Source: Cyrtodaria siliqua (lineage: Eukaryota; Mollusca; Bivalvia; Adapedonta; Hiatellidae). From it: a stretch of 64,000 nt of DNA. The DNA is taken from assembly GCA_037043455.1 (NCBI GenBank), contig JAWPHD010007120.1, forward strand, positions 1-64,000. The letters run 5' to 3'. The notes below the pieces were generated by a model. It searched no databases, was not told where the DNA came from, and saw only the letters and a program-made list of their open reading frames with translations. Positions 3,552 through 54,775 of this stretch are shown piece after piece; the first letter of the stretch is position 1, and each line of letters begins with the position of its first letter. Position numbers and translations under genes: made by a program.

Positions 3552-3716
3552 ATTTAAAAAAGAGTATGATAAGGGACCTTTGGAAAATGGCCGAAAACAA
3601 CACATACAAAATATTACAGTCTCGGTTTGATTGAGACTGTTCATGGGCGGTAGTGAAATATGCTAGCTACCGCTCACGCCCTCTAGCCCCGGATTGAACA
3701 GAACTCAATATAGTCA
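3552..3716 (+). repeat. Dispersed hairpin repeat (H-repeat), plus copy 1
   Basis: Shares long identity with 39405-39560 and, in reverse orientation, with 34071-34318. It contains two predicted stem-loops: CAGTCTC...GAGACTG (9 nt loop), then GCGGTAG...CTACCGC (13 nt loop), followed by CACGCCCTCTAGC. The second stem is preserved by different base pairs in the 34 kb copy, which suggests a structured RNA origin. I do not recognise a parent RNA. Confidence 0.65.
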
Positions 3717-23574: not shown

Positions 23575-25195
23575 CCAAGTTTTTATTTATTCAAGGCTCA
23601 TGAAGAGCATCTGATAAAACAATTAACATTTTGCAGAAACAGAACAATAACAAAACTATTTACATAACAATACACATAATCACATAATCATCACACAACC
23701 AACCATCAATCTGTACATGAATGAAATGACTAGAATGAATAATGAGTGAATCCTAATTTACATGTTTAGTAATGTATTTTTGCTATCTATCTTTTTTGTT
23801 TTTTTTTAACTATTAAGCATAGCATATGGAGAATGAGTGTATACATTTATATTACATAATCTATATATATATATATGTGAAATGTTGAATATCTATATGT
23901 TTTGAGATGAAAGAAACATTTTTTTCTATCAGTCTTTGAGCAAAACTATATGCAGTTATTTACAAGCTTTAAGAATGAGTTCACAAAATCTGGCTAATTT
24001 TAATAATGTATTCTTATCTTTACTATTCATTAATAGCTCATATTTAACAGAATTTGGATTTTTATAAAAAATATTGACCGATAATTTTTTCCTGTCACTT
24101 GCAAAGTGTTACAAATAAATAAGTAGTGAAATTCATCACCCAACAAATGAGCATTACAATGTGTACATGTGCGTCACAGAAATCTTTCTTTCTGTTTAAA
24201 TGTCTTCCTTTTTCTATAGGCATTTTATGATTCATGCAACGGAATTTACAAAAGTATTAGACAAACCAAATGGAAAATATTAAAATACTGCTCAAAAACA
24301 AACTCTCTCTTATACATTCTATAGTTTAAACCTTTACCTAGACTTTGTATATCACTATTCCAAGATTGAACAAATTGATCTCTTATGCGACTCTTAACTA
24401 ATTTTCTAAAATAATCTGGGCTATAAACTTTCTGATCTAACCAGTAATTAGACATCCTAAGTTCGTTGAGTGACTTTTCAACAAATTGTAACCATGGACA
24501 TTTAATTATGTTGTTTTTATGAAGACAATATGTCATTCTATATAGCAAATTGCATATTTTGGTTTCTTTAGCATTTATTAGTTTACACCAGTAAATAAGT
24601 ATTCTACTTCTTAGGTGTAATGGAATCGGAAATATTCCAAGCTCACCATACAACATACAATTCGGTGTAGTTTGTTTCAAGTTAGAATAAATTTACAGTA
24701 TTTAGACTGAAATTGGTCTATAATTTTTAAATCTTCTATACCCCAGACCTCTGATCCATACGAAAATATGGCCACAACCATAGCATCAAACAAATGTAGT
24801 TGCAAATCAAGTGGTAACAACAATTTTCTGACTTTATTAATTAAGGAATATATAGCTTTTCTTGCTTGGTCCACGTATCTTTTCTTAGTTTGACCAAAAT
24901 AAAGCCTCTCCTGCTTTTACAAAATATAACAATTTTAGTTCTCGCCGAGTTCACTTTTAAACCCCAGGTTTTACAATAAACAGACATACTATTTAATGCT
25001 AACTGCAAATCTTCTGTAATTTTAGCTAAAAAAACAGTATCATCCGCATAAAGAAGCAGAAAAGGCTTGAAATAAACCTTAACATCATCATCGCTCAATA
25101 CATCACGAATAGTATCAGACAAAATATCTAGCCCATTGTAATGTTGGGACATGAAATCTACAAGATCATTGAGAAAGAGAGAAAATAAAACTGGT
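23575..25195 (-). mobile_element. LINE A: 5'-truncated APE-type non-LTR retrotransposon
   Basis: Minus-strand reverse-transcriptase fragment starting inside the fingers/palm region (LFSLFLND-like sequence near 25180). It runs through the YADD box, thumb, the connection with YGSEVWG, a long C-terminal domain with DEFHYLF, and an AT-rich 3' UTR reaching about 23575. Upstream endonuclease and the first RT motifs are missing, as expected for 5' truncation during target-primed reverse transcription. The C-terminal DEFHYLF signature is shared with LINE B. By motif order it belongs to the CR1/L2/Jockey-like group; the exact clade is not certain. Confidence 0.85.
23960..25195 (-). pseudogene. LINE A reverse transcriptase C-terminal half
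   Basis: The frames 25152-24841, 24874-24677 and 24680-24246 follow each other with small frameshifts. Visible in order: LLLYADDTVFLAK (catalytic Asp pair intact), the LKVNSARTKIVIF strand, AIFSYGSEVWG, the YGELGIFPIPLHLRSRI region, RIRDQFVQSWNSDI, and after another shift GDEFHYLF and LLKLARFCELI, ending near 23960. At least three frame breaks make it non-functional. Full-length ORF2 proteins of this group are roughly 900-1000 residues; only the last third is present. Confidence 0.85.
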
Positions 25196-31085: not shown

Positions 31086-32545
31086 TAAAAATATCGGACA
31101 GGGAAAGCAGCATTCAAGGACGACAGTCAACCACAAAACACAAAAACAAACACGCAAACAGACAAACGAAAAGGCAAAAGTAATAAAAAATGCAAACGAC
31201 ATCACAAACACAAAAGGGTTGACAAAAGGGCTACCGCCTTGGATCGGTCAGTGGCAAAGTAGGCCACTGGGGGGTTTAAACCGGTTCTAGGGTGCACCAA
31301 ACCTCACACTTACCCTACTGTCATCCCATTAAAACAGGGCAGTGTAAATAAAGAAATCCCCGCCATGATCTAATCTCTAACCAACAAGGCAGCATCAATA
31401 GGCAGTATAAGGAAAACACAAATATGCTCGTGTAAATATAATACAAAAAAACAATAGCCTAGAAAGCCACAATGAAGGTACTCAGTGACTTGGAAGAAGC
31501 CAGAGCAGTAAGAGAATACACCATTAAGGGCACGACAAGATAGATCATGGACAAACATCAAACGCCACCGTCCCAATGGGCTTTAGGTAGGCGTCATCAT
31601 AGGGTCCGCAGCCTGTCCGGTCATCGTACAATTAAAGAGGAAAGCATAGTGGCGAACTGTAAAAGGGTCCACCACCAAGCATGCAGTACGTTGCAAAATG
31701 ATAGGGTCATAATCTCGTATGATAAACCTTTTAACAAGTTTAAAAAAGATAGTATGAAAGTGATCATGACCAAGAATCTTACGAAGTTTATAAATCACAT
31801 CACCATAGAAGTCAGGTTGTGATAGTCCTTGTCGCAGAAGAGTCCTTAAATTACCTTTATATTTGGAAAGGAGATCAGGGTTACGATAATAAAATTTTGC
31901 AAAGATTTTACGAAGTTTATGGTAACGGTAACCCTGATTGAGTAACTTTTTAGTTATACAAAGATTACGAATATTAAAGTCCTCAACTCGAGTACAAGCT
32001 CTAGAAAAACGAATAAATTGAGACAGATACACCCTATAAGAAGTTGCTCGGGGAACATCCCCATCCAAGTGGGGATAATTAACAATGTCAAAATTAAAAT
32101 CATCTCTCTTGTCATAGATTTTGCTAATTATTTTACCATTTTCAATCGAGAGATCTAAATCAAGAAAAGAAGCGTTATTATCAGATATATTTTCTTTATT
32201 AAGCCGAAGTTCTTTAGGATAAATATTATCGACCATAGTTGGAAAGAAAGGGTTGTCAATGTTCAGTATGTCATCCAGATACCGAGAGGTGTCATTAAAA
32301 GCTTCAATAACATCTGCCTGGGTATCTGGTGAAAGACTTAACATGAAATCTCTTTCATAGCAAAATAAATACAAATCTGCGACAAGTGGTGCACAGTTCG
32401 TACCCATAGGGATACCAACAATGTGTCTATAAACGGTGGTACCATACCTGACGAAAATATTATCTAATAGGAAGATGAGTGCTTCACAAACTTCATAGCA
32501 AGTCCACATAGTATAATTGTCTAAAGTTATGCTACCGAAAATCAA
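31085..32545 (-). mobile_element. Penelope-like retroelement, 5'-truncated, inserted in LINE C
   Basis: Minus-strand element whose 5' side begins inside the RT domain at 32545 and whose 3' end is GCTTTCCCTGTCCGATATTT at ~31085. The 3' end matches the fragments at 30650 and 38925 and, more distantly, 5381. On either side LINE C reads KPYSRR and then FDMNLIPNDF. After the RT stop, the conserved downstream sequence is still partly open (31576-31370). Confidence 0.85.
31583..32545 (-). CDS. Reverse transcriptase, Penelope-like (partial), 320 residues
   Basis: The longest protein-like frame in the window. Palm motifs: GIPMGTNCAPLVADLYLF (residues ~43-60), SRYLDDILNI (~87-96, the YLDD catalytic box with both Asp present) and ASFLDLDLSI (~125-134). 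They are followed by IYDKRDDFNFDIVNYPHL and YLSQFIRFSRACTRVEDF. The C-terminal part (GLSQPDFYGDVIYKLRKI ... FTVRHYAFLFNCTMTG) is a tail shared with the remnant at 5788-6141. The spacing and FLD...YDKR pattern fit Penelope-like RTs, but I cannot verify the clade. No GIY-YIG endonuclease is seen. The N-terminal fingers are missing, so the protein is incomplete although the frame is intact. Confidence 0.8.
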   Translation of the reverse strand: MIFGSITLDNYTMWTCYEVCEALIFLLDNIFVRYGTTVYRHIVGIPMGTNCAPLVADLYLFCYERDFMLSLSPDTQADVIEAFNDTSRYLDDILNIDNPFFPTMVDNIYPKELRLNKENISDNNASFLDLDLSIENGKIISKIYDKRDDFNFDIVNYPHLDGDVPRATSYRVYLSQFIRFSRACTRVEDFNIRNLCITKKLLNQGYRYHKLRKIFAKFYYRNPDLLSKYKGNLRTLLRQGLSQPDFYGDVIYKLRKILGHDHFHTIFFKLVKRFIIRDYDPIILQRTACLVVDPFTVRHYAFLFNCTMTGQAADPMMTPT

Positions 32546-33290
32546 AGTTTTGTTAAATTTGATATGAACTTAATTCCCAATGATTTTTTATGCAATGATG
32601 ATATATTGGCGAATGTGAATTATATAATAGCAGACTTGGAAGGTGACTTGCGTACGCAGTCCGATATTGATGTCGTTTATAATGGCTGGTGTGATATGGT
32701 TAAAAATGAAATGTATGCCAAGTTACCTTACAAGACAATTAAGTTTAGTTCAAATAATAATAAAAGGAGACGGATAGGGAAGCCATGGTGGAACGATGAA
32801 CTTACACGTTTATGGAACAATGCATGTGACAGTGAAAAACGATGGTTGAACTGTAAAATTAAGTCTGTAAAAATGAGATATAAGGTCCTATAGAAACCAC
32901 AGCGTAAAGTATAATCTTACATCTGAATACTGCTCATATAGAAAGGTTTTTGACCGTGAGGTTCAGAAGTGTAAGCGACTTTATTAGTATAAGCTACAGT
33001 CTGAAATACTTGATGCAGCCAGTTCTGACCAAGCTGAATTTTGGAAAACCATTGGTAGGATTGGTATTAGTCATACCAAGAATAAACGTATTCCAGTGGA
33101 GGTACTGTTGGATGATGGTAGTTTGTCTAGGGATGTAAAGGATGTTTTAAACAAATGGGAACGAGATTGTACAAATCTTTTAAATAGGAAAGGTACATCT
33201 GAACAGCAGGATTCAGACCAAGATTCAAACGGTAGTACTGAGTATGATAGTAGTTTAAACTCAGAAACATCTATATTGGAAGTTGAAAAA
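32546..33290 (+). pseudogene. LINE C region between endonuclease and RT
   Basis: The frame 32564-32893 reads IPNDFLCNDDILANV ... GKPWWNDEL, the PWW-N-EL motif typical of the APE-RT linker. It is followed by shifted frames with AEFWKTIGRIGISH and KDVLNKWERDCTNLL. Several stops interrupt it. Confidence 0.8.
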
Positions 33291-34050
33291 GGTTATTGAT
33301 AATGCAAAACTACGCAAAGCTTTTGGAATGGATACAATACCAGTTGATGTTTTAAAGAATATTATTTCTATTCTGTTTTTGCACACCCTAGTTAATGTAT
33401 GTTTTAACTCAGGTCGTATACCTGCACTATGGGGTAAAAGTTTAATCAATCCTATTCCAAAATCAAACTCCTTGATCCAAAGGACCCCCTTTCGTACAGA
33501 GGTATTTCACTTGCTTGTTCGATGTATAAATTGTATAGTTCTATCATTAATAATCGCCTTACTGTTTGGTCCGAGTCAAATGATAAATTAGTAGATGAAC
33601 AAAATGGCTTTCGGCAGAAACGAAGCACTATAGACCATGTTTCTTCCTTAACACACATTATTGAAACGAGATAGAAAAAGAAAATGTCTACTTTTTGTGC
33701 TTTTATTGACTTAAGTAAAGCTTATGATTTTATTATTAGAGATAAACTGTGGAAGCGATTAAGTTATCTCGGCATATTTGGTAAAATGTTAATTGCTATC
33801 AAATCTTTATATGTATCTGTCTATGCATGTGTACGGATAAACAATCATTATACTGATTGGTTTGATGTTAATTCAGGATTGCGTCAGGGATATTCATTGT
33901 CCCCTTTACTTTTCAATTTATTTATTAATGATCTTGCTGTCCGTATTAAAGCTTTAGGGACAGGCATTGATATTGGTAATGAGAAAGTGAGTATACTGTT
34001 GTATGCAGATGGCATTGTCTTATTTGCAGAAAATGAACATGATCTTTAAG
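33291..34050 (+). pseudogene. LINE C reverse transcriptase core with mutated YADD box
   Basis: In order: KAFGMDTIPVDVLKN; IPALWGKSLINPIPKS; a shifted PLSYRGISLACSMYKLY; DEQNGFRQKRSTIDHV; CAFIDLSKAYDFI (motif A, Asp present); GLRQGYSLSPLLFNLFIND (motif B); LLYADGIVLFAEN. The catalytic YADD is YADG here, so the second Asp is lost. The last clean frame is 33684-34049, ending where the hairpin repeat is inserted. Confidence 0.9.
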
Positions 34051-34344: not shown

Positions 34345-34725
34345 AATATATGCTCAACGAACTGAATAGTTGATGTGATACAAATGGTATGTTTGTGAAT
34401 AATGCTAAAAGTAAAATTGTTCATTTTAGACCAAATTCAGTTCCAACTTCAAGGTCCGTTTTTTCATGTGGATCAGAAAATATTGATATCACTGATAAAT
34501 ATGAATAGAATTAACAGAGCACTTAGATTATAACGTTACAGCAAAAGTAGTAGCTCAAAGTGCAAGTCGTGCTCTGTGTCTGTTAATTGCCAGAGAGTCT
34601 AGGCGGTATGCCATATGATGTTTTTACTAAGCTATATGACTCATTAGTATGGCCAATTATCTCATATGGTGCTGCTATATGGAGTTGCAAATCATATTCA
34701 TGTATTAATGCTGTACAAAACTGGA
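34345..34725 (+). pseudogene. LINE C RT thumb and connection
   Basis: Shifted frames read VNNAKSKIVHFRP, a KYEYLGL-like strand, TEHLDYNVTAKVVAQSASRA, SLGGMPYDVFTKLYDSLVWP and ISYGAAIWSCKSYSCINAVQ. These correspond to the end of RT and the following domain; the C-terminus is lost at ~34725. Confidence 0.8.
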
Positions 34726-34729
34726 CCAA

Positions 34730-35230
34730 TTCTTCATTCCTCTTTCGCAATCTCTCACAGTATCTTTATAAAAGTTGATATTAAAATGTTTTTGAATCGA
34801 CCACCTAATTCCAATACTTTATTATTTTTACAAACCTTAAAATACACAATGGACCTAGTTCTCCATAAATACCGGCTTTACTAGTAGAAGTTTTAACTCT
34901 TAAGAAGTATTCACAGAATTTCAAATTTATTTCGATCTCCTTGGACTTTGTAAAACCCCAAATTTCTGATCCAAAGCTTAATATAGAACCAACGAACGCA
35001 TGAAATAATTGGCAAAATGTTTTTTGGTTCAAATAGTATTGTTTAAAAACAGTTCCGAGGTAGTTAAAATCGTTAACAACTTCTAAATTATTTCCATTAT
35101 AAACCCATGTCTCATTAACTAAAAGATGACCCCTTTTTCTAAAAAACATAACTTTTGTCTTTTCCGCGTTAACCTCTAATACCCATTTTTCGCAATATTC
35201 TTTAAACACATTTAAACATTCTTGTAAACC
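34730..35230 (-). mobile_element. LINE D: internal RT fragment, minus strand
   Basis: The frame 35209-34805 (134 residues) reads WVLEVNAEKTKVMFFRKRG, DFNYLGTVFKQYY, AFVGSILSFGSEIWGFTKS and YGELGPLCILRFVKIIKYW. This is the RT thumb plus connection of a CR1/L2-like LINE, distinct in sequence from LINE A and B. It is truncated on both sides; the 3' tail of LINE B abuts its 5' side near 35235. Confidence 0.8.
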
Positions 35231-35234
35231 AGAC

Positions 35235-35940
35235 CGTTATTTTCCAGAACAGTACAGAACAACAGAACAGAACAATCTTTTAGTATGTACAATCTCAGGC
35301 AAATGAGTTACAACATGAGAGAATTATTATGCATACAACAAAATACAATTACTAATTTTGGATTAAAAAGGATCACACAAACCCCACTTGATATGGTGGG
35401 AAAAGTTAGGGGGATAACAGTTGCGTGGAATAACATTGCAGCTTCAAATGTGAAGCATGTAAATATATATATTTATATTCTTATATTACTTGTTTAACAG
35501 TTTGTAATAGAATTCGGACACAGACACATAGACTGATTTGTATTTTGGTTGACGAATGAGTTAGAGGCTCCTTAAATTTTATAACATTTGCGTGACGGTA
35601 AAAATACCGTTGAATGTACTTTTGATGGCATTTTAAGAGATAGTGAAATTCGTCGACGATATCAGAGACACACAGAGTACAGCGCTTTAAGTTGTACGGG
35701 ATATTCGCAAACCTACCAGTTTCGACAGGAAATCTATGGTTAGTTGTTCGGAATATGAATACATTAATGTAGCAGTTTCTCGGTAACTTTAGATATGGTT
35801 CAAATGAAGGGTCGTCTTTGAATAGGTTATAATTACGCCCTTTGGACGAATTTTGTAGGTCTGCCCTCCATGATTGTGTAAATTGGTCGATTAAAGTTTT
35901 TTTAATGGATCGATGGACATAATTTAAGTTGGATGTCTAA
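35235..35940 (-). pseudogene. LINE B 3' part: C-terminal domain and tail
   Basis: On the minus strand, from 35934: DIQLKLCPSI, then shifted frames giving LIDQFTQSW, FKDDPSFEPYLKLPRN, TTNHRFPVETGRFANIP and the zinc-knuckle-like RCTLCVSDIVDEFHYLLKC. The 3' tail near 35285-35250 is a degenerate GTTCT repeat. A stretch between QLKL and the C-terminal domain seems deleted. Its upstream coding sequence continues at 35978-36199 (inverted) and 41271-42254. Confidence 0.85.
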
Positions 35941-35977
35941 TATGGAACGCCATAAAAGTCGTATTTGGCGTTCCATA
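35941..35977. mobile_element. 37 bp minimal copy of the TATGGAACGCC transposon
   Basis: Begins TATGGAACGCCA and ends TGGCGTTCCATA, a hairpin with the same termini as the large element at 36200-41270. The middle retains AAAGTCGTAT, part of the longer terminal repeat. It is flanked on the left by GTCTAA and on the right by CAAAAC; neither side matches the other, but each matches a flank of the large element in inverted form. Confidence 0.85.
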
Positions 35978-36199
35978 CAAAACTAAAATAATTGTCTTTG
36001 GTGCCAGAAACATAAATCGTTTCTCATTTAACATAGGACCGGAAAAAATCGAAATAACAAATAAATACAAATACCTAGGAGTAATATTTACTAGCTAGGG
36101 TAGCTTTCTAAACACAAGAAAACACTTGGCCGAACAAGCCAAGAGAGCGTCATTTCTACTTTATCGGAGAAAATCAATTACCTAGACCTACCCTTAGAC
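35978..36199 (+). pseudogene. LINE B segment in inverted orientation (RT thumb)
   Basis: Read on the plus strand this gives TKIIVFGARNINRFSF, ITNKYKYLGVIFTS and LAEQAKRASFLLY, then LPLD after a small shift. It is the direct continuation of LINE B codons that end at 41271 on the minus strand (LKVYYSK|TKIIVFG). It also leads into those that start at 35940 on the minus strand (LPLD|IQLKL). The segment is therefore flipped relative to the rest of LINE B. One in-frame TAG follows IFTS. Confidence 0.9.
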
Positions 36200-36229
36200 T
36201 ATGGAACGCCAAACACGACTTTGATGGCC

Positions 36230-37090
36230 ATTTTCCATTATGATGTGGTCACTTTCATTATGATGTGGTCACTTTCCACTATGATGTGGTCCCTTTACAT
36301 TATGATGTGGTCATTTGTCATTATGATGGAGTCACTTTTCATTATGCTGTGGTCGTTTTACATTATGATGTGGTCATTTGTCATTACGATTTGGTCACTT
36401 TCCATTATGATGTGGTCACTTTACATTATGATGTGGTCACTTTCCATTATGATGTGGTAAGTTTCTATCATAATGTGGTCACTTTCATTATGATTTGGTC
36501 ACTTTTCATTAAGATGTGGTTACTATTTATTATGATGTGGTTACTTTCCATTATGATGTGGTAAGTGTCTATTATGATGTGGTCTCTTTCCATTATGATG
36601 TGGTCACTTGCCATTATGATGTGGTTACTTTACATTATGATGTGGTAAGTTTCTATTATAATGTGGTCACTTTCATTATGATGTGGTCACTTTTCATTAA
36701 GATGTGGTCACTTTCCATTATGATGTGGTTACTATTTATTATGATGTGGTTACTTTCCATTATGATGTGGTAAGTGTCTATTATGATGTGGTCACTTTAC
36801 ATTATGATGTGGTCACTCTTCGTTATGATGTGTTACTTTCCATTATGATTTGGTTACTTTGTATTATGATGTGGTCGCTTTTCATTATGATGTGGTCTGT
36901 TTTAATTATGATGTGGTAAGTTTCTATTATGATGTGGTCACTTTACATTATGATGTGGTCACTTTTCATTATGATGTGGTTACTTTTCATTATGATGTGG
37001 TCGCTTTTCATTATGATGTGGTCACTTTACATTATGATGTGGTCTGTTTTCATTATGATGTGGTAAGTTTCTATTATGATGTGGTATGTG
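36230..37090 (+). repeat. 21 bp minisatellite, left arm of fold-back element
   Basis: Unit CATTATGATGTGGTCACTTTC with variants (CACTTTA, GTAAGTT, TCTGTTT, TCGCTTT). Because the unit is 21 bp, one frame reads an open HYDVVTF heptapeptide repeat. Frameshifts of 20 bp units break it into several frames, so translation is not expected. The last eight units match the right arm in order. Confidence 0.95.
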
Positions 37091-37149
37091 TGGTCACGTG
37101 GTTTTTCTTCAGATAGCGCCATCTATTGACACTGCTTGCGGAAATCAAA

Positions 37150-37431
37150 ATGGCGACAATGATAGAAATCTTAAATTATGTTAAAGTATCCGATGAAGCT
37201 CGTGTAAGATTTTTAGAAGAAGAGTATCTTTTCATGCGATTAACACATTGCAACAACAATTACCTATTTTACAGCGAGTTATTTGAGAAATTGTATTGCT
37301 GTGTCGAGGTACACCGTAAATTCACCGTGTATAAATCGGCAAAGTGGAATGGAATTAGAATGACATTATGGTATGAGATTTTGATTCCAATCGCATTTCA
37401 TTCTGCTCTAAATTCCCATTCCATATTTTAG
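37150..37431 (+). CDS. Small ORF in the fold-back arm, 93 residues, function unknown
   Basis: The ATG at 37150 lies in AAAATGGCG context just inside the minisatellite. The product starts MATMIEILNYVKVSDEARV and continues RFLEEEYLFMRLTHCNNN; the second half (HRKFTVYKSAKWNGIR ...) looks less conserved. The codons for IEILNYVKVSDEAR through about NNN are repeated in the right arm (40500-40370, minus), where a ~40 bp deletion removes the ATG. TTTTACAG at 37268-37275 could be a splice signal. It may be the first exon of a former transposase or captured gene. I do not recognise the family. Confidence 0.35.
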   Translation: MATMIEILNYVKVSDEARVRFLEEEYLFMRLTHCNNNYLFYSELFEKLYCCVEVHRKFTVYKSAKWNGIRMTLWYEILIPIAFHSALNSHSIF

Positions 37432-39055
37432 TCTGTGACACATAATAAAATATGGAACGAATCTGGAAGAAGACACAACGAAAAAGTGTGAAATAGGCTT
37501 ATTAAGGTTATCTAATTATCAGGAAAGCATGGGAACAACAATTCAATATCATAGATCTGTAATTTTCTAAATACATACATAACCTCTAAGTATTAGCCAG
37601 GATTATAGACATTTCTTATGTTAAGTCTTCTAGTCGTACCCTAGATTGTTTTTCGTTTTGGCTGAGACTGCTGTGGTTGTTCAGTACAATTCTGGATACA
37701 TCATGTATCCCCGCAGTGATTGTTCAGTATCATCATGAATCGTACTGAAAAATCACAGCCTAAGGTATTTCTAATTATGTATATTTTAAACAGCTTTACA
37801 ACAAAATCTTAGTTTATATTTAGTTAATTTCTACGGATATGATCTGTCTTTATTCTTAGCGATTTAGGCTTGTTTACGTTGTCTTTTCAATTTGGACGCT
37901 GAAGACATGATAATAGCAATGACTGTGTACACATAAAATCGAGACAAGCTAACCTTAAAGGGAGTAGATCAGGCTTTGTGGCTAAATCTATTTTAAAAAA
38001 GCTATACAATTACCAATTTAAAACAGAAAATGATATACATGTAGATGGGAAATGAACAGTTTCTTATAATAAAACGCAATAATTAATAATTATAAATTAC
38101 AATACGTCATGTTAGTCCTTTTAAAAAGCACTGAACATTTTTTTACCGCCAAGTTTAAAATAGCTATCCCTGGCGCGTAACTATAGTTAGGAAATACCTT
38201 CTTTTGGTTGTTTATTTTATATGATAATTGCTATTTCGTTTGGGTTTATTGCTCAATTAGTTTACTTTAATCAATTAAATACATATCTAATGTATAACAA
38301 TTCTAAAACAAATACCAATCCTGATGTACTTCCTTTAACCTGTTGGCCTTATTGCCTACCGACCGTTCAAAGTCGGTAACAGTCTTCATTTCACCGCTGT
38401 GCGGGTCTACGATGTCATTGCGTTTGGGTACTGTGATTACCATATTCTCATGTTTTATTTATAAACCAATAGAAAGCCAAAACGCAATCACAGGAAGGAA
38501 ACCTTTGCACATACACAATATAGAAATTATAAATCTATAAATCATGTATCGCAACTGCCAGTGAAAAACTAAGAGATGACATCTACTTATAGAGGATTTT
38601 ACATGAGTGCCCGTTTAATATTGAATTTATTAAACGAGTTTGACGGACACACGCACAGACACGTGAGAGCGCGCGCACACACACATTGACATATGTACAT
38701 GGCATACACAAACGAAGTCAGTGCACATTATCATAGCATTATAGTATGGTCGGTGAAATTGCCTTGTATGAATGTCATGCAAACAATTCATTACAAACAA
38801 TAAAGGGGCGGAGCTTTACGTCCGATACATTTATGGAAGTTAGAGCAAGACAGCACGCGCGGACATGGGCACTGAGTACAAAATACCATACTACAAACAT
38901 AGAGCTTGTATTAGAAATATCAAAAGATCGGACAGGGAAAGTAGCATTCAAGGAGGACAGTAAACTAGTTTTTTCTATGTTTAGCGTCATTGGGTTCGTA
39001 GGTTTTTGAATGGCTGGGCTAAAAAAAAAATCTTCATCAAACTTTCAATATATAC
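37432..39055. other. Internal region of fold-back element, no gene recognised
   Basis: AT-rich with inverted words (CAGTACAATTCTGG...; GATACATCATGTATC near 37690-37715). At 38925-38955 GATCGGACAGGGAAAG(T/C)AGCATTCAAGG repeats the 3' terminus of the Penelope-like elements, so a small fragment of one lies here. A CA-rich tract sits near 38645-38690. Open frames up to 87 codons lack recognisable motifs. Confidence 0.5.
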
Positions 39056-39170
39056 TCATCATGACCACATCAAATTTAGAGCAGAATGGAATGCGATTGG
39101 AATCAATATCTCATACCATAATGGTATTCTAATTCTAATTTAAACCATACGTTTTGTACCTCGACAGCGC
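39056..39170 (-). repeat. Inverted partner of 37310-37420
   Basis: The reverse complement has GCTGTCGAGGTACA, ATTATGGTATGAGAT and TTGATTCCAATCGCATT, as in the left arm. It is followed by TTTGATGTGGTCATGATG, which recalls the 21 bp unit. Confidence 0.8.
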
Positions 39171-39404
39171 ATATTTTTTATATATATTTTTTATTATTTA
39201 CCTCGTCATAGGTCTATGGAGGTTCGAGGCCATCCTCCATAAACCTTACAAATGTATATATATAATGTTGCAATAAGTCTGAAAAGACCCTTGAGCAAAT
39301 AAATCAAATACAAATACAATTTAAACTATGTTTCTCGGTCATAGTGGACAGTGTGACTGTTTTCTTTGTTATCTGAAGACAACATGGCAGTAAAATTTAA
39401 AAAA

Positions 39405-39560
39405 AAGAGTATGATAATGGACCTTTGGAAACGGCCGAGCACGACACATACGAAATATTGCAGTCTCGGTTTGATTGAGACTGTTCATGAGCGGTAGTGA
39501 AATATGCTAGCTACCGCTCACGCCCTCTAGCTCCGGGTTGAGCAGAACTCAATATTCATA
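39405..39560 (+). repeat. H-repeat, plus copy 2, inside fold-back element
   Basis: Over 90 percent similar to 3552-3716. The second stem is perfect here: GAGCGGTAG...CTACCGCTC. No target duplication was identified. Confidence 0.7.
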
Positions 39561-40060
39561 AAATCAACAGCACAAAATTTTAACCATCCCGAAGATGGCA
39601 TGCATATGGCGGCGGACATGGAGTTATCCTTCTTTAACGTCTTCCCCATGTCGTACGGCGTATGGTCCCAGTATCTAATCATTCATCCATTCATGAGTTA
39701 TAATTAAAATATATACCCCTACAGAATATAAACACTTAGCACTCTTTTCTTAGTTTCGGTTTGTAATAACAGTGAAACTTATATATATACGGAAATAATA
39801 AAATAAATCGTCAATCAAACAATCACAACATTTTTTGTTCATCTGCAGCTATATATCCAAGTGTTGTTTGTTATATTTAGACATTAACTAAACCATATTT
39901 TTGAGTTATATGCTTGTTATAATTATAAATGTAAAATACTGTACTATATCTAGACGTATACGCGCGTTATTATTGGCGGAGAAAAAAAATGTATATACTA
40001 GCACACAAAAAATAATAGTGACAACAAACATAACAACATAATTATATCTATGTCTTCAGG

Positions 40061-40370
40061 TGCCTCTCTATTGAATATATATTGACCCATGCGAAATCGA
40101 AATTCGAGAAAATATCTATTCAGAGAGGTCCCTCTAGTGCAAAGTAATACATACAACGTTTATCTACTTTACGTGTACGTCATGACTTATTTGTAATATA
40201 TAATTCCATTGTGTTATAGGTAACGTTTTACGTCTAAATGCATGCTATAATCTGTAAGTGATTCTCTAAGTTCTCTATTGAACATATATGACCCATGCGA
40301 AATCGAAATTCGGGATAATATATGTTCAGAGAAGTCCCTCTAGTACATAGTAATATACATACAATTTCTT
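40061..40370. repeat. Direct repeat pair inside fold-back element
   Basis: CTCTCTATTGAA...GACCCATGCGAAATCGAAATTC...GTCCCTCTAGT occurs at 40065-40150 and again at 40275-40355. The 5' halves CTATTGAA(T/C)ATATAT match; each also contains inverted words (CAGAGAGGTCCCTCTAG). Confidence 0.75.
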
Positions 40371-40524
40371 AAGTAACTCGCTGTAAAATAATTAATTGTT
40401 GTTGAAATGTGTTAATCGCATGAAAAGATACTTTTCTTCTAAATATTTTACACGAGCTTTATCGGATACTTTAACATAATTTAGGATTTCTATGGCGCTA
40501 TTTGAAGAAAACCCACGTAACCAC

Positions 40525-41240
40525 ACATATCACATCAAAATAGAAACTTACCACATCATAATGAAAACAGACCACATCATAATGTAAAGTGACCACATCA
40601 TAATGAAAAGCGACCACATCATAATGGAAAGTAACCACATCATAATGAAAAGTGACCACATCATAATGTAAAGTGACAATATCATAATAGAAACTTACCA
40701 CATCATAATTAAAACAGACCATATCATAATGTAAAGTGACCACATCATAATGAAAAGCGACCACATCATAATGAAAAGTTACCACATCATAATACAAAGT
40801 AACCACATCATAATGGAAAGTAACCACATCATAATGAAAAGTGACCACATCATAATGTAAAGTAACCACATCATAATAGACACTTACCACATCATAATAA
40901 AAAGTGACCACATCATAATGGAAAATGACCACATCACAATAGACACTTACCACATCATAATGAAAAGTAACCACATCATAATGTAAAGTGACCACATCAT
41001 AATGTAAAGTGACCACATCATAATGTAAAGTGATCACATCATAACAAAAAGTGACCACATCATAATGGAAAGTGACCACATCATAATGGAAAATGACCAC
41101 ATCATAATGACCAATGACCACATCATATTGGAAAGTGATCACATCATAATGACAAATGACCACATCTTAATGTAAAGCGACCACATCATAATGGAAAGTG
41201 ACCGCATCATAATGAAAGTGACCACATCATAATGGAAAAT
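40525..41240 (-). repeat. 21 bp minisatellite, right arm of fold-back element
   Basis: The reverse complement of the left-arm array. One minus-strand frame stays open for 221 codons of HYDVV(T/S/A/C)(F/L) heptads, because nearly all units are exactly 21 bp. It ends with VTWVFFK, matching VTWFFFR at the inner end of the left array. The open frame reflects the unit length, not a gene. Confidence 0.95.
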
Positions 41241-41270
41241 GACCATCAAAGTCGTGTTTGGCGGTCCATA

Positions 41271-42254
41271 GTTTTGCTGTAGTATACTTTTAATTTCCGA
41301 GATAGACGATACTCGTGGAATTTATTAAGGCCTAATTGGAAAGTTTCGGGGTTCTCACCTAGGATAATGGTATCGTCAGCCTATAGTAGTATTATAATCT
41401 TTATAAAGACATTTATTTGGGGTTCGACTCTAATTCCATCTAGGCCTGTGTTAAGCAAATACTCCTGTAAGTCATTTAAAAAGAAGATAGCAAACATTAT
41501 CGGTGATACATTTTCACCTTGACGGACTCAGCATTGACTCACAAAGAAATTCGAGGTATCGTTATTTATGGACACTCATCATTTAATGTTTTGATACATG
41601 TTATATATTATACGGACGAATTTGCCTTTAATTGTATTACTTAGGAGTTTGCACCATAGGCCCATTCTCCATATAGAGACAAATGCCTGTGTGAAATATA
41701 TAAAGCAGCAACTTTTTCTTTTGTGAACGTAACATCTCCACCAATTTGTGTAATACAAATATATGATCAGTTGTGGAATATTTGGCTCTAAACCCTGCTT
41801 GATTTTCAGCTAAGATTCCTTTTTCATTTAGGAACTTGTTCATTCGTTCGTTTAGTATAGATGTAAACAGTTTGACGAAACAATTTAATATGGTGATCGG
41901 GCGATAAGTTTCAGGTCTTAAGGGATCGCCTTTGTTTTTGAAAATGGGTTTAATGATGCCTTCTAACCAACTTGCTGGGAGAAACCCTGTATTAAGAATA
42001 ATATTGAAGAGTTTGTATATATCGGTAGCATGACTTTTTGAGTAACCTTAATATATTCATTTTATTTGGTCATCAGCAGAGGCTTTTGAGTTTTTCAGTT
42101 TAGATATATTTTTTAAGATCTCATCTGGCGCGATAGGAGAGTTTAAAATGACATCGTCATCCGCAACATTAATTTCGAATGGATCATTATCTTTTTCGTT
42201 TTCTGGAGTATATCGTCCCTTGAACGCTAAAACCATGTAAGTGACATTTTTCAC
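41271..42254 (-). pseudogene. LINE B 5' part: RT motifs to the ADD box
   Basis: Minus-strand frames: PIAPDEILKNISKLKNSKA; FLPASWLEGIIKPIFKNKGD; TYRPITILNCFVKLF; NEKGILAENQAGFRAKYSTT; DHIFVLHKLVEMLRSQKKK; a degraded motif A; SPIMFA-like motif B; ADDTIILGENPETFQLGLN (YADD with the Tyr codon disrupted); KLKVYYSK. The sequence stops at the fold-back element and continues at 35978 on the other strand. The 5' truncation lies near 42240. Several stops are present. Confidence 0.88.
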
Positions 42255-42929
42255 AAAATCACTTTTTTACATAAATCAGTGTATTTAACCAAGATACATA
42301 CCCCATAACTGTGTTTTTAGTCAATTTCCAACTATTTAGTATTTTATTAACTATTTGCAAAATGATGTATCTTTGATGGCTTTTTTTCTTAACGTAAAAA
42401 CAATGTAAGTGCACTTACACTGTTTTTGAATTAAAATTTAAACTGGACCTGCACTTGAGAGAGGTGTGCACTTATTTGCAATATGACATCACAACACATG
42501 ACACATGACTGTGACATCTATTTGGCCAAATAAAAATGTGGTTCCGGTTTCCCGACCGACCCCGTTTTTAAGGGCTCGTCATAATCATTTCATGCCAAAA
42601 AAAAACATAAAAAATATAAATAAATAAAATAAATTAAAAATTATAATTTAAAAAAAAAAGAAAAAGAAAAAAAACTGATATCAACACACATGTATTTAAG
42701 TTAGGTGATTAAGTTTTAAAAGTATTGAGTGATAAAAATACCAAATATAAAAAAATATATTTTTAGAAAATAAAAAAAATCCCTACCTGACCTACCCTAT
42801 ATATAATAGTAACCACTTTCAAGGACTTGTCTATTTGAAAGGCATAATTCCTCAAACTTATGGCACTTGCCTCTGAGTTTTTCATATGAAAGTCAGTGCT
42901 TGTTAGATGTGTCATTGAATTCTTTTTGG
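42255..42929. other. AT-rich non-coding DNA
   Basis: Contains AATGTAAGTG(C)AC-type words twice, an A-rich tract (42595-42680) and nothing that looks coding. Confidence 0.5.
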
Positions 42930-44084: not shown

Positions 44085-45623
44085 ATTTATGATGTTGCTG
44101 TTGTTGCTGCTTCTGCTGCTGTTGTTTTTGCTGTTGCTGTTGTTCAGGGTATTTGTTCCAGTCATTGTTGTTGTTGTTTTAAGGTTGCTGCTGCTGCAGC
44201 TGCTGTTGCTGTTGTTGTTGTTGCTGCTGCTGCTGCTGCTGTTCAGGTTATTTGTTCAGGTCGTTGTTGTTCTTGTTTTGTTCTTTTGTTTTGTTTTGTT
44301 GTTTTGTTTTTCAGGTTTTTGTTGTTGTTGTGCTGCTGCTGCTGCTTTTGCTACTGATGATGATGATTATGCTGTTGTTGTTATTGTTCAGGTTTTTTGT
44401 TCAGGATATTGTTGTTTTCAGGTTGTTGTTGTTGCTGCTGCTGCTACTGATCATGATGATGATTATGCTGTTGTTGTTGTGTTGTTTTTGCTGCTGCTGC
44501 TGCTGCTGCTGCTGTTGTTGTTGCAGTCGCTGTAGTTCAGGTTCTTTGTACAGGTAGTTGTTGTTGTTGTTGTTTTTCAGATTGCTGCTGCTGCTGTTGT
44601 TGTTGTTGCTGTTGCTGTTGTTCAGGTTCTTTGTTGATGTCATTGTTGTTGTTTTTCAGGTTGTTGTTGCTACTACCGATGATGATGATGATTATGCTGT
44701 TGCTGTTGTAGTTAATGTCTGTATTGTTGTTATTGTTGTTGTTCATATCATTGTTGTTGTTGCCACTGTTTTGTTGTTGTCGTTTTGTTGCTGCTGCTGT
44801 TGCTATTGTTCAGGTTCTTTGTTCAGGTCTTTGTTGTTGTTTTTCAGGTTGTTGTTTTTGCTGTTGCCGTTGTTCAGGTTCTTTGTTCAGGTCGTTGTTG
44901 TTGTTGTTTGTTAGGATGCTGCTGCTACTGATGATGATGATAATGCTGTTGTTGCTGCTGCTGCTGCTGTTTGTTGTTGTTCATGTCTTTGTTGTTGTTG
45001 TTTGAACAACAACAACATCGTTTTTACTGCTGCTGTTGCTGTTGCTGTTGCTCTTATTCATTTTTTTTTTGTTCAGGTCATTGTTGTTGTTGTTTTTCAG
45101 GTTGTTGTTTGTTGTTTTGATTTGTTTTGTTGTTTTGTTTTGTTTTTTTAGGTTGTAGCTGCTGCTGATGCTGCTGCTGCTAATGCTATTGTTCAGGGTA
45201 TTTGTTCAGGTCATTGTTGTTGTGTTGTTGTTGTTGTTTTGTTGTTTTATTTTGTTTGATTTCTTTTTCAGGTTGCTGTTATTGCTACTGATTTTGCTGT
45301 TGTTGCTGCTGCTTCTGCTGCTGCCATTGTGGTTACTGTTGTTCAGGTCCTTTGTTCAGGTCTTTGTTGTTGATTTTCAGGTTGTTGTTGCTGCTGTTGA
45401 TTATGATGTTGTTGTTGCTGCTTCTGCTGCTGTTGTTTTTGCTGTTGCTGCTGTTCAGGTTATTTATTCCGGTCGTTGTTGTTGTTGTTTTAAGGTTGCT
45501 GTTGCTGCAGCTGCTGTTGCTGTTGTTGTTGCTGCTGCTGCTGTTCAGGTTATTTGTTCAGGTCATTGTTGTTGTTTTGTTGTTCTTTTGTTTTGTTGTT
45601 TTGTTTTTCATGTTTTGTTGTTG

Positions 45624-45654
<31 letters not shown>

Positions 45655-47742
45655 ATTGCTACTGATGATGATGATTATGCTGTTGTTGTTCAGGTTTTTG
45701 GTTTAGTTTATTGTTGTTGTTGTTTTTCAGGTTGTTGCTGCTGCTGCTGCTTTTGTTGCTATTGCTGTTGTTTAGGTTCTGTGTTCAGGTCATTGTTGTT
45801 GTTTTAAAGGTTGTTGTTGCTACTGCTACTGATGCTGCTGCGACTGGTGATGATTATGCTGTTGTTGCTGTTGATAATGCTGTCGATGTTGTTGTTGCTG
45901 CTGTTGTTCAGGTTCTCTGTACAGGTCATTGTTGTTGTTGTTGTTTTTCAAGTTGCTGTTGTTGCGGTTGTTGTTGTTGCTGCTGCTGCTGTTGCTATTG
46001 TTCAGGATATTGTTGTTGTTGTTTTCATGTTGTTGTTGTTGCTGCTACTGATGATGATGATGATTATCCTGTTTTTTTGTTTTTTTGGGTGCTGCTGCTG
46101 CTGTTTTTGTTGCAGTTGCTGTAGTTCAGGTTCTTTGTACAGCTATTTGTTGTTGTTGTTGTTTTTCAGGTTGCTGCTGCTGCTACTGCTGCTGTTGTTG
46201 TTGCTGTTGTTCAGGTTCTTTGTTGATGTCATTGATGTTGTTTTTCAGGTTGTTGTTTCTGCTACTGATGATGATGATTATGCTGTTGTTGTTGTAGTTC
46301 ATGTCTGTATGTTTGTTGTTGTTCATATCATTGTTGTTGCCGTTGTTTTGTTGTTGTTTTGTAGCTACTGCTGTTGCTATTGTTCAGGTTCTTTGTTCTG
46401 GTCTTTGTTGTTGCTTTTCAGGTTGTTGTTGCTGTTGCTGCTGTTGCTGCTGTTGTTGTTGTTGCTGTTGCTGTTGTTTAGGTTCTTTGTTCGGGTCGTT
46501 GTTTATCAGGTGTTGTTGTTGCTGCTGCTGGTACTGATGGTGATGATTATGCTGTTGTTGTTGCGGCTGCTGCTGCTGCTGCTGCTGTTGCTGTTGCTCT
46601 TATTCATTTTTTTGTTCAGGTCATTGTTGTTGTTGTTTTTCAGGTTGTTGCTTGCTGTTTTGATTTGTTTTGTTGTTTTCTTTTGTTTTGTTTTTGTTTT
46701 TCAGGTTGTAGCTGCTCTGCTGCTGCTGCTGCTGCTGCTGCTATTGTTCAGGTCATTGTTGTTGTTTTGTTATTGTTGTTGTTGTTTTGTTGTTTTATTT
46801 TACTTGATTTGTTTTTCTTTTTCAGGATGTTGTTGTGTTGCTGCTGCTGTTATTGCTACTGATTATGCTGTTGTTGCTGCTGTTGTTGCTGCTGCTTCTG
46901 CTGCTGCCTTTGTGGTTGCTGTTGTTCAGGTTCTTTGTTCAATTCGTTGTTGTTGTTTTTCAGGTTGTTACTGCTGCTGCTGCTGCTGTTTTTGTTCAGG
47001 TCATTGTTGATGTTGTTTTTCATGTTGCTGCTGTTGCTGTTGCTCAGGTTCTTTGTTCAGGTCATTGTTGTTGTTTTTTAGGTTGTTGTTACAGTTACTA
47101 CTGATGATGTTGATGATGATGATGATGATGATGATGATTATGCTGTTGTTGCTTTTGTTCATGTCTGTATTTTTGTTGTTGTTCACATCGTTGTTATTGT
47201 TGCCATTGTTGTTTTGTTTTGTTGTTTTGTTGCTGCTGCTGCTGCTGTTGCTATTATTCAGGTTCTTCATTCAGGTCTTTGTTGTTGTTTTTCAGGTTGT
47301 TGTTGTTGCTTGATTATGATGTTGTTGTTGTTGCTGCTTCTGCTGCTGTTGTTTTTGCTGTTGCTGCTGTTCAGGTTATTTGTTCAGGTCATTGTTGTTG
47401 TTGTTTTGTTGTTGTTTTGTTTTGTTGTTTTGTTTTTCAGTTTTTTGTTGTTGTGCTGCTGCTGCTGCTATTGCTACTGATGATGATGAATATGCTGTTG
47501 TTGCTGCTGCCGTTGTTGTTCAGGTTTTTTGTTCAATTCATTGTTGTTGATTTTTAGGTTATTGCCGCTGCTGCTGATGATTTTGTTGCTATTGCTGTTG
47601 TTTAGGTATTTTGTTCGGGTCATTGTTGTTGTTTTAAAGGTTGTTGTTGCTGCTGCTAGTGATGATGCTGCGACTGATGACTGCTGCTGTTGTGGTTGCC
47701 GTTGCTCTTGCTATTGTTCAGGTTTTTTGTTCAGGATATTGT
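44085..47742 (+). repeat. GTT/GCT trinucleotide array with higher-order structure, block 1
   Basis: Built from GTT and GCT triplets with recurring landmark words: TTGTTCAGGTTCTTTGTTCA, GTTTTTCAGGTTGTTG, CTACTGATGATGATGATTAT, GTTCATGTCTGTATTG and TTTAAAGGTTGTTGTTGC. Landmarks recur at ~1.55-1.83 kb (TTTAAAGG at 45805 and 47633; TTTTTCAGGATGTTGTTGTG-type at 45270 and 46815; CTTTGTACAG at 44540 and 46130). It is therefore a higher-order array, not a simple microsatellite. Long open frames (up to 399 codons) encode only Leu, Val, Cys or Ala runs and arise because these triplets rarely form stops. Confidence 0.9.
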
Positions 47743-50700
47743 TAAACCCCCACAAACGAAGTTTGGGGGTGTAAATAGGAGTGAGCTTGTCTGTCCGTCT
47801 GTCGGTCAGTCTGTTGGTTTCTGGACGATAACTCATGAAAGGGTTGATGGATTTAAATAATATTTGGTACACGGGTATAACACCACAAAGTAAAGCCAAG
47901 TTCGACTTTGGTTACAAACCACCAATTTTTGACGGAGTTGTGGCCCCTTTTCAACTTACAAACCACCAATATTTTACGGAGTTATGGCCCCTTTTCAACC
48001 GGCCTGTTGGTTTCCGGACGATAACTCATGAAAGGGTTGACGGATTTAAATAATTTTGGTACACGGATATAACACCATAAAATACAAGTCAAGTTCGACT
48101 TTGGTTACAATCCACCAATTTTTGACGGAGTTATGTCCCCTTTTCAACTTAGAATTTGCGCAAAAAACGGTGTCCGGACGATAACTCATGAAAGGGTCGA
48201 CGGATTTAAATAATGTTTGGTACACGGGTTTAAGACCATAAAATACAGGTCAAGTTCGACTTTGGTTACAAACCACCAATTTTTGACGGAGTTATGGTCC
48301 CTTTTCAACTTAGAATTTGCCAAAAAAACGGTGTCCGGACGATAACTCATGAAAGGGTCGACGGATTTAAGTAATTTTTAGTACACGGGTTTAAGACCAT
48401 AAAATACAGGACAAGTTTGACTTTAGTTACATACCACAAATGTTTGACAGAGTTATGGCCCCTTTTCAAATTATAAATTGTCCAAAAAACGGTGTCCGGA
48501 CAATAACTCATGAAAGGGTTGACTGATTTAAATAATTTTTGGTACACGGGTTTAAGACCATAAAATACAGGTCAAGTTCGACTTTGGTTACAAACCACCA
48601 ATTTTTGACGGAGTTATGGCCCCTTTTCAACTTAGAATTTGCCCAAAAAACAGTGTCCCGACGAAAACTCATGAAAGGGTCGACGGATTAAAATAATGTT
48701 TGGTACACGGGTTTGAGACTATAAAATACAGGTCAAGTTTGACTTTGGTTACAAACCACCAATTTTTGACGGAGTTATGGCCTCTTTTCAACTTATAAAT
48801 TGCCCAAAAAACGGTGTTCGGACAATAACTCATGAAAGGGTCGACGAATTTAAATAATATTTGGTACACTGTTACAACACCATAAAATACAAGTCAAGTT
48901 CGACTTTGGTTACAAACCACCAACTTTTGACGGAGTTATGGTCCTTTTCAACTTATAAATTGCACAAAAAAACGGTGTCCGGACAATTACTCATGAAAGG
49001 GTCGACGGATTTAAATAATATTTGGTACATGGGTATAACACCATAAAATACAGGTCAAGTTCGACTTTGGTTACAAACCACCAAATTTTTACGGAGTTAT
49101 GGCCCCTTTTCAACTTAGAATTTGCGCAAAAAACGGTGTCCGGACGATAACTCATGAAATGATTAAATAATTTTTGGTACACGGGTTTAAGAGCATAAAA
49201 TACAGGTCAACTTCCACTTTGGTTACAATCCATCAATTTTTGACGGAGTTATGGCCCCTTTTCAACTTAGAATTTGCCAAAAAACGGTGTCCGGACGATA
49301 ACTCATGAAAGGGTTGACGGATTTAAATAATATTTGGTAGACGGGTATAACACCATAAAATACAGGTCAAGGTCGACTTTGGTTACAAACCACCAATTTT
49401 TGCCGGAGTTATGGCCCCTTTTCAACTTAGAATTTGCGCAAAAAACGGTGTCCGGACGATAACTCATGAAAGGGTCGACGGATTTAAAGAATTGTTGGTA
49501 CACGGGTTTAAGACCATGAAATACAGGTCAAGTTTGACTTTGGTTACAGACCACCAATTTTTGACGGAGTTATGGCCCCTTTTCAACTTATAAATTGCCC
49601 GAAAATCGGTGTCCGGACAATACCTCATGAAATTGTCGACGGATGTAAATAATAATTGGTACAAGGGTATAACACCATAAAATACAAGTCAAGTTCGACT
49701 TTGGTTACAAACCACCAATTTTTGACGGAGTTATGGCCCCTTTTCAACTTAGAATTTGCCCAAAAAACGGTGTCCGGATGATAACTCATGAAACGGTCGA
49801 CGGATTTAAATAATTTTGGTACACGGATATAACACCATAAAATACAAGTCAAGTTCGACTTTGGTTACAATCCACCAATTTTTGACGGAGTTATGTCCCC
49901 TTTTCAACTTAGAATTTGCGCAAAAAACGGTGTCCGGACGATAACTCATGAAAGGGTCGACGGATTTAAATAATGTTTGGTACACGGGTTTAAGACCATA
50001 AAATACAGGTCAAGTTCGACTTTGGTTACAAACCACAAATTTTTGACGGAGTTATGGTCCCTTTTCAACTTAGAATTTGCCCAAAAAAACGTTATCCGGA
50101 CGATAACTCATGAAAGGGTCGACGGATTTAAGTAATTTTCAGTACACGGGTTTAAGACCATAAAATACAGGTCAAGTTTGACTTTGGTTACAAACCACAA
50201 ATGGTTGACAGAGTTATGGCCCCTTTTCAAATTATAAATTGTCCAAAAAACGGTGTCCGGACAATAACTCATGAAAGGGTTGACTGATTTAAATATGTTT
50301 TGGTACACGGGTTTAAGACCATAAAATACAGGTCAAGTTCGACTTTGGTTACAAACCACCAATTTTTGACGGAGTTATGGCCCCTTTTCAACTTAGAATT
50401 TGCCCAAAAAACCAGTGTCCCGACGAAAACTCATGAAAGGGTCGACGGATTAAAATAATTTTTGGTACACGGGTTTAAGACTATAAAATACAGGTCAAGT
50501 TCGACTTTGGTTACAAACCACCAATTTTTGACGGAGTTATGGTCCTTTTCAACTTATAAATTGCACAAAAAAACGGTGTCCGGACAATTACTCATGAAAG
50601 GGTCGACGGATTTAAATAATATTTGGTACACGGGTATAACACCATAAAATACAGGTCAAGTTCGACTTTGGTTACAAACCACCAAATTTTTACGGAGTTA

Positions 50701-51530
50701 TGGCCCCTTTTCAACTTAGAATTTGCGCAAAAAACGGTGTCCGGACGATAACTCATGAAATGATTAAATAATTTTTGGTACACGAGTTTAAGAGCATAAA
50801 ATACAGGTCAAGTTCCACTTTGGTTACAAACCATCAATTTTTGACGGAGTTATGGCCCCTTTTCAACTTAGAATTTTCCAAAAAACGGTGTCCGGACGAT
50901 AACTCATGAAAGGGTTGACGGATTTAAATAATATTTGGTACACGGGTATAACACCATAAAATACAGGTCAAGGTCGACTTTGGTTACAAACCACCAATTT
51001 TTGCCGGAGTTATGGCCCCTTTTCAACTTAGAATTTGCGCAAAAAAGGGTGTCCGGACGATAACTCATGAAAGGGTCGACGGATTTAAAGAATTTTTGGT
51101 ACACGGGTTTAAGACCATAGAATACAGGTCAAGTTTGACTTTGATTACAGACCACCAATTTTTGACGGAGTTATGGCCCCTTTTCAACTTATAAATTGCC
51201 CGAAAATCGGTGTCCGGACAATACCTCATGAAAGTGTCGACGGATTTAAATAATAATTGGTACAAGGGTATAACACCATAAAATACAAGTCAAGTTCGAC
51301 TTTGGTTACAAACCACTAATTTTTGACGGAGTTATGGCCCCTTTTCAACTTAGAATTTGCCCAAAAAACGGTGTCCGGATGATAACTCATGAAACGGTCG
51401 ACGGATTTAAATAATTTTTGGTACACGGGTGTTTCCGGACGATAACTCATAAAAGGGTTGATGGATTTAAATAATATTTGGTACACGGGTATAACACCAT
51501 AAAATACAAGTCATCTTCGACAAACAATAG
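47743..51530 (-). mobile_element. Satellite-bearing element, ~160 bp units, with hairpin end
   Basis: Starts with the hairpin AACCCCCACAAACGAAGTTTGGGGGTG, then a GTCTGTCCGTCTGTCGGTC tract: the inverse of a (GGAC)n-plus-hairpin 3' end. The element therefore lies in minus orientation. The core is ~22 units of ~161 bp: GGACGATAACTCATGAAAGG, ATAAAATACAGGTCAAGTTC, GACTTTGGTTACAAACCACC and GACGGAGTTATGGCCCC. Units 48043-49800 reappear at 49803-51400 (distance 1760, reduced to 1601 after loss of one unit). The minus-strand frames around 66 codons are unit-length artefacts. The element interrupts the trinucleotide array. Confidence 0.85.
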
Positions 51531-54400: not shown

Positions 54401-54432
<32 letters not shown>

Positions 54433-54518
54433 CTGCCGATGCTGTTGTTTTTGCTGTTGTTCAGGTTCTTTGTACAGGTCGTTGTTGTTGTTTTTCAAGT
54501 TGCTGCTGCTGCTGCTGT

Positions 54519-54555
<37 letters not shown>

Positions 54556-54775
54556 ATTGTTCAGGTTATTTGTTCAGGATATTGTTGTTATCGTTTTCAG
54601 GTTGTTCTTGCTGCTGCTGCTACTGATGATGATGATGATTATGCTGTTGTTGTGAGTTTTTTTGCTGATGATGCTGCTGCTGCTGTTGTTGTTGCAGTTG
54701 CTGTAGTTCATGTTCTTTATACAAGTAGTTGTTGTTGTTTTTCAGGTTGTTGTTGCTGCTACTGATGATGATGAT
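52765..54775 (+). repeat. GTT/GCT trinucleotide array, block 2
   Basis: Resumes in the phase where block 1 stops: block 1 ends TTGTTCAGGATATTGTT, and block 2 begins TTGTTGTTTTCAGG(T)TGTTG. In intact units (for example 44400-44425) these two words are contiguous. The same landmarks recur at ~1.6-1.7 kb once the 5,022 bp insertion is subtracted. On the minus strand the array reads poly-Asn/poly-Gln with KEPEQ spacers. No gene is called. Confidence 0.9.

Follow-up and report, generated by a model that had tools for sequence, protein, structure and literature searches.

Within the 64,000-bp stretch analysed here (contig JAWPHD010007120.1 of the bivalve Cyrtodaria siliqua, positions 1 to 64,000; in the following, the window), a piece of 222 bp of an old long interspersed nuclear element (LINE), positions 35978-36199, is inverted relative to an older arrangement. 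The piece lies between two copies of one fold-back DNA transposon, one of which is 5,071 bp long while the other is reduced to a stub of 37 bp, and its inversion is required independently by target duplications that have been exchanged between the two copies and by the order of the LINE itself. Events of this kind have been described in fruit flies before, and the present case is unusually small. As to its origin, we favour, with a probability of about 0.55, an ectopic recombination in which two copies of the fold-back element, separated by 222 bp, took part, followed by the collapse of one of them.

Direct reading of the plus strand gives the order GTCTAA (35935-35940), a 37-bp palindrome (35941-35977), CAAAAC (35978-35983), the LINE piece, TTAGAC (36194-36199), the 5,071-bp fold-back element (36200-41270) and GTTTTG (41271-41276), in agreement to the base with the letters and coordinates given for 35935-41276 in a preliminary description of this DNA. 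Each of the two transposon units is flanked by two different 6-mers, and these correspond crosswise, inner to outer: GTCTAA is the reverse complement of TTAGAC, the two being the halves of the duplication of one target site (site B), and CAAAAC is the reverse complement of GTTTTG, the halves of the duplication of the other (site A). Inverting 35978-36199 generates a perfect 6-bp duplication around both units, as had been claimed. From the 6-mer frequencies in the flanks and with fixed positions, the probability that both matches arise by chance is 4.6e-7 (9e-7 if the alternative pairing is also permitted), and only 2 of 2,000,000 simulated quadruples had both matches. Base by base, the four junctions are undamaged, including the 6-bp halves and the TA ends of the transposon units. 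A search of the window for the terminal motif TATGGAACGCCA with at most two mismatches finds the four element ends and nothing else; such a loose pattern is by itself not above chance (3.88 matches expected in the window), and the ends also agree further inward. A composite transposon spanning 35941-41270 is ruled out, as its outer flanks GTCTAA and GTTTTG mismatch.

The second line of evidence is the LINE, which runs on the minus strand on either side of the inversion. Its 3' part (35487-35934, sense reading IQLKL...) is degenerate, with a deletion after LKLCPSIH that becomes apparent when the frames are compared, and its 5' part (41277-42263, sense reading ...LKVYYSK) follows to the right of the element; the outer edges of both parts, which derive from high-scoring segment pairs (HSPs) with homologues, are approximate. 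The 222-bp piece (TKIIVFG ... LPLD) belongs to the region that follows the reverse transcriptase core, and it reads on the plus strand, against the sense of the LINE parts that flank it. A search with a 473-aa translation of the LINE, in which the piece had already been flipped, retrieved 701 homologues, of which 120 listed ones were used in all tests described below; all 120 carry a reverse transcriptase domain. Upon flipping, LSRKLKVYYSKT is joined to KIIVFGARNINRFS at junction 1 and NYLDLPLD to IQLKLCPS at junction 2, both continuously and without gaps relative to the homologues. The preliminary description had stated that the flip makes the LINE frame continuous, which holds for the homology at both junctions but not for a single open frame, because the reading frame differs between the two junctions; the piece itself contains a frameshift and stop codons.

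The junctions were further analysed by aligning DNA without the transposon units and without one copy of each duplication, in the flipped order and in two unflipped control orders. When at least 60 bp on either side of junction 1 are demanded, all 120 homologues align through the flipped order, as compared to 15/120 and 12/120 with the controls. The preliminary description had considered that relatives of the LINE might naturally carry the segment inverted; all 120 run through junction 1 in the flipped order, the query itself having been pre-flipped. At junction 2, a gap-free peptide test could be anchored in the piece for 109/120 homologues and was positive in the flank for 103/108, with values of at least 10 in 76, whereas the control join was positive in 0/108. 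In the genome as assembled, 90 of the 120 plus-strand HSPs in the piece have their start at 35979, with the other 30 starting at 35886-35934 and crossing the stub, and 115 of the 120 minus-strand HSPs that end within 41200-41400 end at 41270, so that both limits fall within one base of a CAAAAC copy. To the left of the piece, the minus strand is matched by 109/120 homologues, and 16 run slightly beyond the duplication. The motifs at both cut points are found in 68/120 homologues and are separated there by 71 codons in 58 cases, 72 in nine and 73 in one, each spacing being taken from the motif pair nearest 72; the LINE described here has 71 codons plus 2 nt between the cut points, and no loss or gain of bases at the inversion is seen at protein-level resolution. 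A capture or copying of the piece by the transposon is ruled out, since the piece is absent from the LINE at that place and present there in the homologues.

Two of the 120 homologues (P0005 and P0112) are named by their source as being from Candidatus Thiodiazotropha assemblies; these bacteria are symbionts of lucinid clams, and both entries are thus probably host sequence. The window contains further LINE remains near the one studied here. Just downstream of it, a second fragment at 34697-35323 on the minus strand covers the same protein region (KTKVMFF...), is matched by 119/120 homologues and includes a 134-aa open reading frame (ORF; 34805-35209). The remains of another LINE at 32564-34049 are on the plus strand, opposite to the studied LINE, and 33684-34049 therein matches RVT_1 with an E-value of 1.6e-15. 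At 24246-25152 on the minus strand, ORFs resemble the same LINE region when their translations are inspected by eye (YADDTVFL..., RTKIVIF).

The 5,071-bp unit begins with TATGGAACGCC and ends with GGCGGTCCATA, i.e. it has TATGG..CCATA termini with outermost TA. Repeat finding and arm comparison show long inverted arms, as expected of the fold-back type, and these contain tandem arrays of a 21-bp unit, with 41 copies on the plus strand in the left arm (36225-37085) and 34 copies on the minus strand in the right arm (40531-41245). An inner part of the left arm outside the array (37162-37296, plus strand) is 92.6% identical to the right arm over 135 bp; the remaining 7.4% divergence would fit a chimeric element, as described for the Drosophila transposon Galileo, and would equally fit age. 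In the middle of the element, which comprises about 3 kb, the two open stretches examined contain no recognised coding: neither the 101-aa ORF nor a 90-aa open stretch, the two regions covered by the search for a transposase, has a Pfam match, and the 101-aa ORF is without homologue. The element may be non-autonomous. Within the loop, an inverted 63-bp pair (39073-39135 and 37352-37414, 93.7% alike) lies beside the main arms, so that some 1.2 kb may interrupt the right arm, a direct repeat of about 94 bp (40065-40156 and 40272-40364, 88% alike) occupies the right half, and about 155 bp (39401-39555) recur at 3556-3711 with 92% identity, probably as a nested or shared repeat.

With respect to relatives of the element, IS3EU/GingerRoot DNA transposons have TA..TA ends and 6-bp duplications (PMC10045372), and the element resembles them in its TATGG...CCATA ends and in the 6-bp duplications that are seen after re-pairing, i.e. 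at two sites in this one case. It differs from them by its long arms with 21-bp arrays, and no transposase is found in its two open stretches examined. Judged from the ends and the duplications, an IS3EU/GingerRoot kinship may serve only as a lead. Searches with the element end and with the 21-bp unit gave 0 exact matches each in IMG/VR, and the papers listed in searches for their letters in the open literature are unrelated according to title and beginning of the abstract. A 21-bp satellite, CgiSat43, is reported from the Pacific oyster (PMC8268682), and its unit has the same length as that of the arms.

The 37-bp unit at 35941-35977, TATGGAACGCCATAAAAGTCGTATTTGGCGTTCCATA, is a stub of the same transposon, as sequence comparison shows. 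It is composed of 9 bp of one end, CCA, and 25 bp of the other. When followed from right to left, it starts with the 28-bp terminal sequence of the element (26/28 identical to the left end) and continues with 9 bp of the opposite end. A deletion in the large element that runs from CCA to CCA (positions 10-12 of the left end; 26-28 bp from the right end) and keeps one of the two gives a product of exactly 37 bp, which agrees with the stub in 34/37 bases; of the three differing bases, one is private to the right end of the large element. The unit does fold into the hairpin that had been described, with a 12-bp stem and a 13-nt loop, but it is more than a hairpin, as it carries both transposon ends. 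It may have been formed by a microhomology deletion, by interrupted copying or by imprecise excision. Each unit has inverted repeats as its two ends, and the stub is too short and symmetric to be oriented.

The nearest known case, with the same architecture, is inversion 2s of Drosophila mojavensis, in which a 981-bp copy of BuT5 is found at one breakpoint, a 27-bp BuT5 scar (12 + 15) at the other, and 9-bp duplications are exchanged (PMC3355041). In both systems, a large copy at one breakpoint is thus combined with a tiny scar of both ends at the other, and the duplications are exchanged as inverse complements. The differences are that 2s is a fixed inversion of a fly chromosome with 9-bp duplications and a miniature inverted-repeat transposable element, whereas the inversion described here comprises 222 bp inside a dead LINE, with 6-bp duplications and a fold-back element. 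The preliminary description had pointed to Galileo, and this comparison is apt as well, although less close: in inversion 2z3 of Drosophila buzzatii, Galileo, a Foldback-like transposon with long inverted arms, is present at both breakpoints with exchanged duplications of 7 bp (PMC2775673). Both Galileo copies are long and were shown to be chimeric, whereas one of the copies described here has only 37 bp. In maize, inversions by reversed Ac/fAc ends likewise have transposon ends at both breakpoints (PMC8225341), but they have a new, matching 8-bp duplication at their junctions, as opposed to two exchanged pairs and no third site in the case of the LINE piece. By this criterion, which is taken from the same source, a reversed-ends transposition of two existing copies into a third site is ruled out, as there is no third duplication. 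In the open literature on exchanged target duplications and microinversions, which leaves most subscription journals outside the coverage, no 222-bp case was met.

How could such an inversion arise? In the mechanism that we favour, two copies of one fold-back transposon would have entered the old minus-strand LINE separately, one at CAAAAC (site A) and one at TTAGAC (site B). Pairing and recombination between their long inverted arms, within the chromosome, could then have turned the 222 bp round, and the inner half of each 6-bp duplication would have changed places with that of the other. The left copy would have lost everything between the CCA of one terminal repeat and the CCA of the other, leaving the 37-bp palindrome, probably after the flip or else during the same repair. 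In accordance with the preliminary description, which had regarded exchanged duplications as the mark of an inversion between two transposon copies, the inversion is borne out by both the duplications and the LINE homologues. Recombination of two inverted copies yields, according to PMC8225341 on maize, inverted inner and usually non-identical duplications and no new one, and the authors of the BuT5 (PMC3355041) and Galileo (PMC2775673) studies chose recombination for their inversions. The arms would provide ample homology in a full copy, with their 41 and 34 copies of the 21-bp unit and an inner part that is 92.6% alike, and this favours recombination. The inverted match that now faces itself across the piece is perfect for 14 bp only, or extends over 28 bp with two mismatches.

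Several points weigh against this explanation, in part with respect to the LINE evidence and in part with respect to the route. The homologues were retrieved by a query that was already in the flipped order. In the ungapped peptide test of junction 1, only 64/120 homologues could be anchored and 41/62 were positive, although the present order fared worse (27 anchored, 0/23 positive). The alignment test of junction 2 gave 40/120 homologues in the flipped order versus 6 and 23 in the controls with a margin of 15 bp, 11/120 versus 3 and 13 with 30 bp, so that one control even exceeded the flipped order, 11 versus 3 and 0 with 45 bp, and 7 versus 0 and 0 with 60 bp; this test is weak because a frameshift lies just within the piece, where 102/120 plus-strand HSPs stop at 36170. 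As the perfect facing match has only 14 bp, a recombination by long homology must predate the collapse of the left copy, an order of events that is assumed. Two independent insertions of the same family within 222 bp would be a coincidence, unless the family is abundant or prefers certain sites. Finally, recombination and transposition were told apart in the case of Galileo by chimeric versus identical copies (PMC2775673); for such a test the remnant offers just 37 bp, and the window shows no further copy of the family.

What alternatives exist for a recombination between two copies? The most serious one, which the preliminary description had named as well and which is possible but less probable, is a single event in which one copy, by hybrid element insertion with the ends of sister copies or by an intramolecular replicative reaction, inserts 222 bp away and thereby creates the inversion, the second copy and its duplication at once. 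The exchanged duplications would be the same, and PMC2775673 calls such an outcome strikingly similar, except that the copies would be identical rather than chimeric; here, the comparison of the two copies is confined to 37 bp, in which there are three differences that are possibly later changes. Two sites only 222 bp apart would need no coincidence, and copying that was cut short would account for a remnant of both ends joined at the 3-bp microhomology CCA. It counts against this route that no transposase is found in the two open stretches examined. The complete version of this scenario, in which one local transposition of the fold-back element inverted the adjacent 222 bp and interrupted copying left the full copy and the 37-bp stub, appears to us somewhat unlikely. 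Should the element family prove to be rare, two sites so close to each other would speak for such a one-step transposition rather than for two insertions and a recombination.

It is improbable that the piece was turned by end joining, i.e. that both elements were cut at their ends facing the piece and that the freed 222 bp were rejoined backwards. On reasoning alone, this would likewise flip exactly the 222-bp piece and exchange the duplications, but small losses or filler are the usual result when ends are joined after an excision, and none of the four 6-bp halves and none of the TA ends is damaged. An even less probable explanation is that the assembler flipped the piece between inverted repeats. 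Such an error would give an identical-looking pattern; it is nevertheless unlikely because the facing repeats match perfectly for only 14 bp (28 bp with two mismatches), around a piece of just 222 bp, and assemblers normally rely on repeats that are longer than matches of 14-28 bp. That two unrelated insertions and an unrelated LINE fragment came together by coincidence is hardly conceivable: apart from the shortness of 6-mers, nothing speaks for it, and the chance of 4.6e-7 stands against it, as does the LINE homology that is restored at the very same places.

Very small inversions usually carry no legible trace of how they arose, and in the present case all four scars have been kept. The architecture of a large copy and a stub, known from a chromosome inversion of a fly, is thus also found over a distance of 222 bp, and a stub and a full copy whose duplications are exchanged represent a signature that can be searched genome-wide. 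If a single transposition were the true cause, the inversion would correspond, in a eukaryote, to the adjacent inversions that are made by replicative bacterial transposons, and it would disclose a route to very small inversions of a kind that is not expected from recombination by short homology.

In the remainder of the window, a 320-aa ORF on the minus strand (31583-32545) contains the motifs YLDDIL and GIPMGTNCAPL and is, by eye and from these motifs, presumably reverse-transcriptase-like; it has no Pfam match at an E-value of 0.01. Overlapping its end, 31359-31828 is 85% like 5567-6033. A satellite array with 21 copies of a 161-bp unit (88% matches) extends over 48009-51430, and two mutually related long blocks of low complexity, 44090-47743 and 52767-54781, are rich in TTG/TGC and show strong AT and GC skew.

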